Shown here piece after piece: positions 3,440 through 52,166 of a stretch of DNA of 64,000 bases. The notes beneath the pieces were generated by a model, which was not told the DNA's origin, did not search any database, and saw nothing but the letters and a program-made list of their open reading frames with translations. The translations under genes were made by a program, and so were the position numbers. The stretch is from Methanomicrobiaceae archaeon (GTDB taxonomy: Archaea > Halobacteriota > Methanomicrobia > Methanomicrobiales > Methanomicrobiaceae), in the NCBI GenBank assembly GCA_029762625.1, contig JARVGI010000002.1, positions 250,772 to 314,771 on the forward strand, written 5' to 3'. Numbering within the stretch: position 1 is the stretch's first letter; the number at the start of each line of letters is the position of its first letter.

Positions 3440-4313
3440 GGCCCTGAAAAAACAGGGCTACCAGTTTTTCAACGACCGCTCCTCCGCGGCGCTCAAGCCC
3501 TGCATGTGGAACAAGCGGACGCTGCGGGGCGGGGCGATGTGCTACAAGCACACCTTCTACGGCATCGAGAGCCACCGCTGTGTCCAGATGACGCCGACCC
3601 TCCGCTGCAACCAGCGGTGCCTCTTCTGCTGGCGCTCCATGGAGCACGAGGTCCGTGAGGAGGAGGAGATCGATCCCGCCGAGATCGTGGCGAGGGTCCC
3701 GGCGCTCCAGAAAAAGGCACTCTCCGGGTTCAAGGTCTCGCAGTATGTCACCCCCGAACGGTTTGCGGAAGCGCTCGATCCCACCATGGTGGCCATATCC
3801 CTCTCCGGAGAGCCGACCTGCTACTCCCGCCTCCCCGAGCTGATCGACCAGTTCAACGAGGAGGGCTACACCACGTTCCTGGTCAGCAACGGCACGAGGC
3901 CCTGGGTGCTCGAGCGGTGCCGCCCCTTCCAGCTCTACATCTCGCTGGATGCGCCGGACAGGGAGACGTATATGCGGATCTGCCGGCCGAAGGGCGATTA
4001 CTGGGAATTTCTCCAGGAAAGCCTCTCCCTGCTCGGGCCCCGCCGGTCAGTGATACGCGTGACCGTGGTGCAGGGGCACAACGATTTCGGTGCGGAGGGC
4101 TATGCCCGGATGATCCAGGGCTCGGGGGCGGATTTCGTGGAGGTGAAGGGATACATGTATCTTGGATACAGTCGAAAAAGGCTTTCACGGGAGAACATGC
4201 CGGAACACGAGCATGTGCGGGAGTTTGCCGAGGCGATTGCACAACACTGCGACTATCGCCTGCTGGACGAACGCCCCATCTCACGCGTGGTCTGTCTGGA
4301 GCGTATCCAATGA
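3420..4313 (+). CDS. taw1: 4-demethylwyosine synthase (radical SAM, TYW1/Taw1)
   Basis: Radical-SAM enzyme that condenses N1-methylguanosine-37 of tRNA-Phe with pyruvate carbons to form the tricyclic wyosine base. The radical-SAM cluster motif is CNQRCLFC, with Cys at residues 63, 67 and 70, followed by Trp as usual for TYW1. A further set of Cys residues lies N-terminal (KPCMW, MCYKH), consistent with the second iron-sulfur cluster of the family. No flavodoxin domain is present, as expected for archaeal enzymes. The start at 3420 is preferred over upstream in-frame starts because these lie deep inside argS. The ATG of sepS overlaps the stop codon (ATGA), which indicates coupling. Confidence 0.95.
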
Positions 4314-5890
4314 GGTTCGATGCCGAAGCATTCAGGAAACTATCACGTGAAGATTTCGAAAAAGCGTGGTACAAAGGGCCCGAGGTCCTGACGCCCCCCG
4401 GCGTTGCGGGCACCTACCCGCGCAGGCGCTACCGCCGGGCGAGCCCCCACCCGATCAGCGAGACGATTCAGCGCCTGCGGCAGGTGTACCTGTCGATGGG
4501 GTTCGATGAAGCGTGCAACCCCCTGATGATCGAGGAGAAGGATGTCTACCGCCAGTTCGGGCCGGAGGCGAGCGCCGTGCTCGACCGGGTGTTCTACCTT
4601 GGCGGCCTGCCGCGGCCCAACGTGGGGATCGCGCAGGCGCAGATCGAGCGGATCGGTGCCATTACCGGCCAGCCCCTCAGCACCGAACACGCAAACAAAA
4701 TGCGGGAGACGCTCCATGCCTACAAGAAATCGGTCATCGACGGCGACGAGCTGACCCACGAGATCGCCTCGGTGCTCGAGGTCGACGATGCGGTCGCCCT
4801 GCGCATCCTCGATGAGGTGTTTCCCGAATTCAAGGATCTGGCCCCGGAATCGTCGCGGACGACCCTGCGCAGCCACATGACGAGCGGATGGTTCATAACC
4901 CTGGGTGCGCTCTGGGAGCATGCACCCCTCCCGATCCGCCTCTTTTCGGTGGACCGCTGTTTCCGGCGCGAGCAGGAGGAGAGCGCTACCCGCCTGATGA
5001 CCTACCACTCAGCATCCTGCGTGGTGGCGGGGGAGGATGTCACCAACGAGGAGGGAAAGGCGGTGAGCGAGGCGCTGCTCTCTGCGTTCGGGTTCACCGA
5101 TTTCAAATTCCTCCCGGACGAAAAACGCTCCAAGTACTACATGCCGGACACGCAGACCGAGGTCTACGCCCGCCACCCGGTGCATGACTGGGTGGAGGTG
5201 GCGACCTTCGGGATGTATAGCCCCTCGGCGTTGGGTGAGTACGGCATCGAGGTGCCGGTGATGAATCTCGGGCTCGGCGTGGAGCGGCTGGCAATGCTCG
5301 CCTATCAGGCCGACGACGTGCGCCGCCTCACCTTCCCCCAGTTCTTCCCGCAATCCCTCTCCGATCGCGCCATCGCCGCACTGGTGGGCCTGCGCGAGGG
5401 GCCGGCAACGGTTGCGGGCCGAGCCCTCGCCCTCGCCATTCGCGAGGGTGCCGAGGCGCATGCCGCCGAGCCCGGTCCCTGCTCGTTTGCGGTGTGGGAG
5501 GGCTCCCTCGGGCAGACCGCGATCAGGGTGTTCGTGGAAGAGCCGGAATCGAACACCAGACTGCTCGGGCCTGCCTGTTTCAATGAAATTTTCGTTCACC
5601 GGGGCTCGGTGCTCGGCGTCCCGGACACCGAAAAGTGGGCGGAGGTGCGAAAACTCGGCGCCTCCACCGGCATCACCTATCTTGATGCGGTCGCCAACCT
5701 TGCCGCCGCACGCATCGAGGAAGCGGCACGCTGCGGCGGTGAGACGATGGTGCAGGTGAAGATGGTGAAACTCCCCGGCGATATCAACGTGAAAATCGGG
5801 GAGTCCGCCATGCGGTTCATCACGGACAACAACAAAAAGGTGGACGTGCGGGGCCCGGTGTTCATGACCGTCCGGTCCGAGCTGACCTGA
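4310..5890 (+). CDS. sepS: O-phosphoseryl-tRNA(Cys) ligase (SepRS)
   Basis: Class II synthetase that attaches O-phosphoserine to tRNA-Cys. SepCysS then converts this to Cys-tRNA(Cys), the route methanogens use in place of or beside CysRS. The protein has 526 residues, close to the usual SepRS length, and opens with the family-typical [20 protein letters not shown]. Class II features include the FRREQ motif 2 strand-loop and the [10 protein letters not shown] motif 3. A C-terminal part ([14 protein letters not shown]) completes the protein. The start at 4310 overlaps the taw1 stop; a longer upstream extension of the frame is a shadow of taw1. The SepCysS gene is not in this window. Confidence 0.95.
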
Positions 5891-48250: not shown

Positions 48251-48901
48251 TTACGCACTGTAAAAGGTCACTTTTTTTCCTTTCTCGCTGTATTCGCCAA
48301 GATAGGTCTCGATATTGCGCTTGTAGCCGATGCGCTGCTCGACGCCGAGATCGGCGAGCTGCCGCCGGACGCGCATCACGTCCTCTTCGTCTTCCCAGTT
48401 CTCCGTATACACGTAGATCACTTTCCGCGTGTCCCGTGAATCGGGGTTCGGTTTGGCGGTGCTCACCTTTGCGGAAATTCCCAGCGTTCCTCTGCAGGTC
48501 GCGTCCCGGATGCGCTGCCACATGGCGTCCACCTCGTCCTCGTCGAGGAAGATGAGCCATTTCCCACCCTTTTCATTATCGACTTCCTCGGGACGATATC
48601 CGGGTGCGTCCTGGATGATCCAGTACATCTGGGTGGTCCGGGTGGGGATAACGCCTTCTCCCCGGCGCAATTGCGCGTAGATTCCCTCTGGGCGCGTGAA
48701 CCGCACAAGAAGCGCCTCGGCAAGCTGCGGGTATTCCTCCTGGAATAATGAGAAAATTTCTGTGAAATCCTGCAGGAAATCGATCTCCTTTTCCACCAGT
48801 TCGAAAAGAACGTGGCCCTGGGCCTGCAGTTCCTTGTTCAGAAGAATTTCGAAGAGGCCGTATGCCACATCTCCGAGTGCATGCTCTTCGGCGTTTTCCA
48901 T
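48251..48901 (-). CDS. DUF1917 / putative phosphothreonine lyase-domain protein
   Basis: Soluble acidic protein of 216 residues. The C-terminal half (KGGKWLIFLDEDEVDAMWQR, LGISAKVSTAKPNPDSRD, KVIYVYTENWEDEEDVMRV) corresponds to the archaeal DUF1917-type family related to eukaryotic Bles03 and often labelled putative phosphothreonine lyase. The reaction has not been shown for archaeal members as far as I know. The N-terminal half is helical and acidic (DVAYGLFEILLNKELQAQ). The start at 48901 is chosen because the A+T-rich run between the two candidate starts (48910-48943) looks like the promoter. Confidence 0.65.
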   Translation of the reverse strand: MENAEEHALGDVAYGLFEILLNKELQAQGHVLFELVEKEIDFLQDFTEIFSLFQEEYPQLAEALLVRFTRPEGIYAQLRRGEGVIPTRTTQMYWIIQDAPGYRPEEVDNEKGGKWLIFLDEDEVDAMWQRIRDATCRGTLGISAKVSTAKPNPDSRDTRKVIYVYTENWEDEEDVMRVRRQLADLGVEQRIGYKRNIETYLGEYSEKGKKVTFYSA

Positions 48902-49009
48902 AGTAGTTTGTTGAAAAAAGCGACAAAAAAATATTTTCATTCTCATGGAGGGGCAGCGGACGCGAGAAAAATGCTTCCTGCGGCCGTTCCCGCGTGCGAA
49001 AATCCCGTT

Positions 49010-51103: not shown

Positions 51104-51376
51104 TCCCCATTCCCCAAATAAGAATCGTATCGGTCTCCTGATTCGGCTATATTGCTTTTCTTTTTTTATTCGCTTCATGTTCCTGATGCAATGTAACTAC
51201 AGTCGCAGCCAACGCATCGCATCCGCATTCCATGCCAACATACGTCTATTTACAAGGGTTTTCAGGCCTTTGTGTCACGAAACGTGTGATTCTATATTTT
51301 CTCGTGCTGACGTTTTCCGTTTCAGTATCCGGCTGTATTGCGGGATTGAGGATTATCAAGACGCCATACTGAAAAA
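51104..51376. other. A+T-rich intergenic stretch after tRNA-Val
   Basis: No supported gene. A reading frame crosses it but begins inside the tRNA and has no ribosome-binding site or family features. The composition is much richer in A+T than the core genes to the left. Confidence 0.5.
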
Positions 51377-51386
51377 TGTATAAATA
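51377..51386 (+). promoter_or_regulatory. TATA box of the rhodopsin gene
   Basis: TGTATAAATAC, close to the archaeal consensus, 25-33 bases before the ATG. The transcript would be leaderless or nearly so; no Shine-Dalgarno is seen before this ATG. Confidence 0.65.
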
Positions 51387-51409
51387 CTACCGGTAAGCAT
51401 CCCTCGGCC

Positions 51410-52018
51410 ATGGCAACCGAGATCATCGTCTTTCAAATCGGCGCAATGATTTTTGCAGCGTCTTCCGTTGTGTTCCTGTTTGGCGGCACGAAAAAGCTAA
51501 TGTTCGATACGGAATTTTTTATCAGTTTCATCACCAGCACGAGTTATGTGGTGATGAGCCTGGCCATAGCGACGACCGTTGCTCTGGGCGGAGGGACAAT
51601 TTACTGGTCGCGGTGGTTGTTCTATATGGCGGCCTGTCCTTTACTGATGTATGACGTCGTGAGAATTTCAACGACATCACACCAGGAATATCCCAAATTT
51701 GTTCTTCTCACCTGCCTGACCATGTTCAATGGATTTCTTGCCAGCTTCATCGTCACCTCATCCCGGTGGATTTTCTTTCTCTTTGGTTCTGCAGCATTCA
51801 TAGGCCTTCTTTATATGGTATCCCGGGGCCAGGAAAACCGTGCCTCAAAAACGCTAAAACCATTCGTTTATATTGGGTGGTCCCTTTTTCCGGTAGTATT
51901 TCTCCTTGCTCCGACGGGTTTTGGAATCTTCGACGCCCCCGTTACGGCATTCCTGTATCTTCTGCTTGATATTGTGACGAAACTATGGTTTGGCATCATT
52001 ACGATCAGGATGAAGTAG
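51410..52018 (+). CDS. microbial (type I) rhodopsin, counterion-variant
   Basis: Seven hydrophobic segments in 202 residues, alignable without gaps to bacteriorhodopsin (BR) in helices C, E, F and G. Helix G DIVTKLWFG carries Lys191 (BR Lys216, retinal Schiff base) and Asp187 (BR Asp212). Helix F has WSLFPVV (BR WSAYPVV; Trp157 = Trp182). Helix C YWSRWLFYMAACPLLMYD keeps Arg68 (Arg82), Pro77 (Pro91) and Asp82 (Asp96), but Asp85 is Phe71 and Thr89 is Ala75. Glu194 and Glu204 of the proton-release group are Thr169 and Thr179. A classic proton pump is therefore unlikely; a sensory or other role is inference. Loops are short (BR has 248 residues). No retinal-synthesis gene or transducer is nearby. 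Base composition differs from the neighbours, so transfer is likely. Confidence 0.9.
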   Translation: MATEIIVFQIGAMIFAASSVVFLFGGTKKLMFDTEFFISFITSTSYVVMSLAIATTVALGGGTIYWSRWLFYMAACPLLMYDVVRISTTSHQEYPKFVLLTCLTMFNGFLASFIVTSSRWIFFLFGSAAFIGLLYMVSRGQENRASKTLKPFVYIGWSLFPVVFLLAPTGFGIFDAPVTAFLYLLLDIVTKLWFGIITIRMK

Positions 52019-52166
52019 CCTGCACGTGGCAGAGCGCTCCGCATACGAAGCACGAGGAGTGATTGCACCATATATTCCATCGCCTGAAACGGGATCGTGT
52101 GGTTCTCCTCCGAACCAGGTCCCCTGAACAGTATACATTTAATAAGCAAAGAGCAGATTTCCCGAA

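Follow-up and report, generated by a model that had tools for sequence, protein, structure and literature searches.

A schizorhodopsin gene with a Phe-Ala-Asp helix-C motif in a Methanomicrobiaceae methanogen

An intact seven-helix rhodopsin gene in a methanogen genome

The window, a 64,000-nucleotide stretch of the genome of a Methanomicrobiaceae archaeon, carries at positions 51410-52018 (+) an intact open reading frame, ATG to TAG, whose 202-residue product we identify from its PF01036 match, its PDB matches, its clade and its structural model as a seven-helix schizorhodopsin (SzR). The PF01036 profile search, which the first-pass annotation of this DNA had proposed, was significant (E 3.6e-24, 85.9 bits against a curated cut-off of 24.6), and a domain profile search found no extra signalling domain within the 202 residues. 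An AlphaFold2 model built with 30 homologues folds into seven helices with a mean pLDDT of 87.6 and a pTM of 0.85. When this model was submitted to Foldseek, solved microbial rhodopsins matched it with TM scores of 0.85-0.91, and both AntR and SzR4 fell within the top five (TM 0.86-0.90) with the lowest rmsd listed (1.9-2.0). We also found mcrA in the window genome, identifying the host as a methanogen, and in the four other genomes that encode a related rhodopsin. The earlier suggestion of a genuine type-1 rhodopsin in a methanogenic host is borne out.

Reading of the upstream sequence revealed a candidate archaeal TATA box, TATAAATA, at 51379-51386 (+), 31 bases 5' of the ATG; as the putative promoter of the rhodopsin gene, it would give a leaderless mRNA or one with a very short leader. 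Elsewhere in the window, positions 48254-48946 (-) encode a Bles03 domain protein (PF08939, E 3.5e-23) with a weak IF4E-like match, a member of a eukaryote-named family that is unusual in a methanogen.

A single carboxylate near the Schiff base

Bacteriorhodopsin (BR) numbering was transferred from an alignment of 30 rhodopsins that included SzR4, AntR and haloarchaeal rhodopsins, two of them BR-like. The helix C motif RWLFYMAACPLLMYD (51611-51655, +) aligns to BR residues 82-96 and places Arg68 at BR82, Phe71 at BR85 followed by Tyr72, Ala75 at BR89, Cys76 at BR90 followed by Pro77, and Asp82 at BR96, in agreement with the Phe/Ala/Asp reading of sites 85, 89 and 96 in the first-pass annotation. 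The helix G motif DIVTK (51968-51982, +) sets Asp187 (codon 51968-51970) on the counterion BR Asp212 and Lys191 (codon 51980-51982) on the Schiff-base lysine BR Lys216, as had been proposed, and both residues are invariant in the alignment. Loss of the lysine in close homologues, which had been named as grounds for abandoning a rhodopsin assignment, is not seen (Lys kept in 30/30 sequences). With Phe71 occupying the Asp85 site, Asp187 is the sole candidate counterion.

The helix F pocket W157-S-L-F160-P161-V-V-F164 (51878-51901, +) aligns with BR W182, Y185, P186 and W189, and the combination of Phe at the BR Tyr185 site with Cys at BR90 is present in all seven SzR sequences aligned. In xanthorhodopsin types, Gly at the BR Trp138 site opens a window for a carotenoid antenna. 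Alignment and codon place Phe123 (51776-51778, +) rather than Gly at this site, so that the window is closed and we reject an antenna of the xanthorhodopsin type. Asp175 (51932-51934, +) lies 12 residues before the counterion, like LaSzR2 Asp172, an extracellular-side proton donor that is proposed, not proven (PMC7704677); the equivalent residue is Asn in SzR4 and Asp in LaSzR2.

The window protein is a schizorhodopsin

Sequence searches of the PDB returned SzR4 (E 1.1e-29) and AntR (E 1.2e-29) well ahead of the rest, followed by cyanobacterial chloride pumps at about 1e-16, with bacteriorhodopsin at about 1e-9. A profile built from four methanogen proteins placed the first three matches in the same order, with SzR4 at 145.8, AntR at 128.9 and the next at 100.8 bits. 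Schizorhodopsins are light-driven inward proton pumps that were first found in Asgard archaea and are best known from these and from candidate-phylum bacteria. In a tree of 33 rhodopsins, an analysis that the first-pass annotation had also suggested, the window protein falls inside a single clade of seven rows made up of the methanogen proteins, SzR4 and AntR, with support of 100/99 and recovery in 200/200 bootstrap trees. SzR4 and AntR, the latter presumably of non-methanogen origin, were the only non-methanogen SzR references, and their branches are long, leaving the branching order within the clade unsure.

The window protein shares 33% identity with SzR4 (PDB 7e4g) and 38% with AntR (Antarctic rhodopsin; PDB 9or2, 9ork, 9ot0), an inward-pump relative that also has Phe at position 85. 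It bears the marks held in common by SzR4 and Asgard schizorhodopsins such as LaSzR2, namely an aromatic residue (Phe) at BR85, Tyr86, Cys90, Phe185, Lys216, a lone Asp212 counterion as the single carboxylate near the Schiff base, and a length of about 200 residues, together with short loops. The helix-3 counterion position in schizorhodopsins is Phe or Tyr (PMC13093656), and in LaSzR2 the Asp212-equivalent Asp184 is the sole remaining carboxylate and was tentatively assigned as counterion (PMC7704677). The defining pair of the family, Phe or Tyr at BR85 and an Asp212 equivalent that is the only counterion, is thus present here as Phe71 and Asp187. The full helix-C motif differs, as AntR carries FSE and the window protein reads F-A-D; relative to SzR4, Ala replaces Ser at position 89, Asp replaces Glu at 96, and Pro occupies 91. 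A carboxylate at the 96 site is kept in every SzR aligned, and the LaSzR2 authors describe Glu81 as "not conserved in SzRs" (PMC7704677). Collectively, these findings indicate that the FSE motif is not a strict requirement for membership and that the window protein is a schizorhodopsin whose position-85 residue is ordinary for the family. Phe at the Asp85 site had been presented as unprecedented, but alignment with SzR4 and AntR and the published family description (PMC13093656) make Phe or Tyr there the norm.

Xenorhodopsins (NsXeR, RmXeR) likewise pump protons inward by means of a single counterion; however, they keep the helix-3 Asp and have Pro in place of Asp212 (PMC7704677, PMC13093656), the reverse of Phe71 and Asp187, and we rejected this assignment.

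Distribution, neighbourhood and origin of the gene

A PF01036 search recovered an intact SzR in four of the 232 Methanomicrobiales genomes. A further intact copy came from G257, which carries mcrA and lies outside the order, in a set of 394 genomes taken from the phylum. The fifth match in the order, a weak one in G159, resembles a CPBP-type membrane protease on inspection by eye and was discarded as false. The helix-C motif reads FAD in the window, YSD in G081 and G082, and FSE in G257, indicating that it drifts within the group. Scanning viral contigs with the G082 SzR gave no match. At another locus, L007 2416-7086 of G081, a CheA-like kinase and a Cache-domain chemoreceptor are encoded some 1.2 kb away from the SzR gene; they are not adjacent to it in G082.

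The nearest relative found is an orthologue with 94% identity in the metagenome-assembled genome Methanoculleus sp. SpSt-1212 (G098). Comparison of the two genes by NG86 gave a dN of 0.039 against a dS of 0.18 (dN/dS about 0.2-0.3), demonstrating that the rhodopsin gene is kept by purifying selection. Kawasaki, Konno and Inoue reportedly characterised the schizorhodopsins of Methanoculleus taiwanensis (MtSzR) and Methanoculleus sp. (MsSzR) in 2021, and, given the identity of its nearest relative, the window protein may be one of the two, and would probably be so if its host were Methanoculleus taiwanensis.

Locus comparison showed that the segment with the rhodopsin (approximately 51123-52160) is replaced in the congener G099 by about 1.8 kb of unrelated DNA between the same flanking genes, an M48 peptidase and a FAD-Rieske oxidoreductase. 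The site between these genes therefore holds an SzR in two congeners and different cargo in a third. By eye, the G099 insert (L082, about 3760-5530) contains a hydrolase-like and a SnoaL-like ORF. The rhodopsin gene has a GC content of 47% (56% at third positions) compared to 60% for the window, and third-position GC in three nearby genes is 76-86%. The AT-rich composition and the different genes at this site in a congener suggest that the rhodopsin gene was probably acquired horizontally, at a variable site, although loss of the rhodopsin in G099 may instead account for the difference.

Carotenoid genes and the supply of retinal

The window genome contains carotenoid genes in a row (L015 7167-11183, G000:C25 at about 34.2-38.2 kb, minus strand) that encode a CrtID-type CrtI (687 bits against a cut-off of 640), a phytoene synthase (CrtB), a LyeJ-like UbiA prenyltransferase whose PRK12875 match exceeds the cut-off, and a CruF-like PF04240 protein. 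Haloarchaea use this set for bacterioruberin synthesis, and we refer to it as a bacterioruberin-type cluster. As judged by position and similarity, the crtI, crtB and UbiA genes are likewise grouped in G081 and G082 (confirmed for G082). Phytoene synthase (PF00494) is encoded in 35 of 232 Methanomicrobiales genomes from 11 genera, far more than carry rhodopsin, and by this count carotenoids may be common in the order. A 2022 review named methanogens as a group whose carotenoids are unstudied (PMC9410494). The enzyme is encoded in three of the four SzR genomes; the association is weak (hypergeometric 0.02, 135 good genomes), and two of the three are congeners and so not independent.

The branch to retinal instead needs a lycopene cyclase and Brp (PMC9410494). 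Searches that covered the four SzR-bearing genomes of the order found neither a CarR-type lycopene cyclase (TIGR03462) nor an RPE65-type oxygenase (PF03055). Blh/Brp (PF15461, TIGR03753) was not found in the same four genomes, and as no control genome rose over cut-off either, the sensitivity of both Blh/Brp searches is not established. The matches to the lycopene cyclase profile PF05834 were weak, and the best in the window genome was by eye a geranylgeranyl-reductase-type flavoprotein and was rejected; a match of 0.596 in the retinal-gene searches belongs to G159 and not to an SzR-bearing genome. The earlier remark that the vicinity lacks a blh/brp gene is correct, and at this search sensitivity it extends to the whole genome; of the crtB/crtI/crtY and blh/brp genes that the first-pass annotation proposed to look for, crtI and crtB are present, and no recognised lycopene cyclase or blh/brp was detected. 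The usual last step to retinal uses oxygen. In this host, retinal may come from other organisms or be made via an unrecognised route. A supply from other organisms has been proposed for Saccharibacteria, whose rhodopsins, in hosts that lack blh, take up added retinal (PMC9296517).

Proposed function and alternative readings

We favour, with a probability of about 0.78, a reading of the window protein as a schizorhodopsin that carries all-trans retinal on Lys191 and acts as a light-driven inward proton pump with Asp187 as its sole counterion. By analogy with characterised relatives, all-trans retinal would bind Lys191, and Asp187 would serve as the only counterion since Phe71 leaves the Asp85 site without an acceptor carboxylate. 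Upon photoisomerisation, the Schiff-base proton, lacking an acceptor at the 85 site, would pass Asp82 (the SzR Glu81 site) on its way to the cytoplasm, and reprotonation would come from outside, perhaps through Asp175. Inward proton pumping has been demonstrated by experiment for LaSzR2 (PMC7704677) and AntR (PMC9442786). In LaSzR2, formation of M accompanies proton release into the cytoplasm, and its decay accompanies uptake from the extracellular side (PMC7704677); re-isomerisation of retinal precedes reprotonation in schizorhodopsins (PMC13093656). The non-pumping photoreceptor considered in the first-pass annotation is not the best inference, since the characterised proteins that share this arrangement are inward pumps. 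Against our reading stand the F-A-D motif, the strictly anaerobic host and a genome in which no retinal pathway was found.

The loss of the FSE Ser and the replacement of Glu by an Asp one carbon shorter could alter the efficiency or the direction of pumping, and these two changes are also what would favour a retinal-binding protein of schizorhodopsin fold that acts as a photosensor or as a weak, slow pump. In G081, which belongs to another family of the order, the chemoreceptor and CheA-like kinase near the SzR gene fit a sensory role, whereas no chemoreceptor adjoins the close SzR of G082. In the window, no transducer or signalling gene lies directly beside the rhodopsin, its neighbours being the M48 peptidase and the FAD-Rieske oxidoreductase, which led us to reject a sensory rhodopsin. 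The 202 residues without an extra signalling domain and the carboxylate kept at the 96 site in the aligned SzRs argue against such a protein, which we consider improbable.

An opsin that works without retinal, or that is non-functional in a cell unable to make it, is in our view improbable, though it would be consistent with the lack of a detected CarR-type cyclase, Blh/Brp or RPE65-type oxygenase in the four SzR-bearing Methanomicrobiales genomes. However, the gene evolves under purifying selection with Lys191 and the pocket intact, and the uptake of added retinal by Saccharibacteria rhodopsins provides a precedent for hosts without blh. A protein using no retinal, as the first-pass annotation had also entertained, is therefore unlikely given the conserved lysine and pocket. 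An outward proton pump or an anion pump shares the general fold, and chloride pumps are the next PDB matches after the schizorhodopsins, but the absence of an Asp/Glu acceptor at 85 (Phe71 instead, which also led us to reject a bacteriorhodopsin-type DTD or similar pump), the absence of a TSA/NTQ-type motif and a position outside such clades in the tree make this reading scarcely tenable.

Implications

Taken as a whole, the first-pass annotation is partly supported, as a sound observation with an overstated reading: the host is uncommon, the SzR family is known, and the counterion itself is no surprise. We think it unlikely that some methanogens run a light-driven inward pump with retinal obtained by an unrecognised route, either imported from neighbouring organisms or made by an unknown cyclase and cleavage enzyme that draw on lycopene from the cell's bacterioruberin-type pathway; if true, light would affect the proton balance of a strict anaerobe. 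Intact SzRs in several mcrA-bearing genomes pose testable questions, namely where an anaerobe would obtain its retinal and why a cell living on a proton/sodium gradient would admit protons in the light. The F-A-D, Y-S-D and F-S-E motifs among methanogen schizorhodopsins form a natural test series for the roles of the FSE Ser and Glu.
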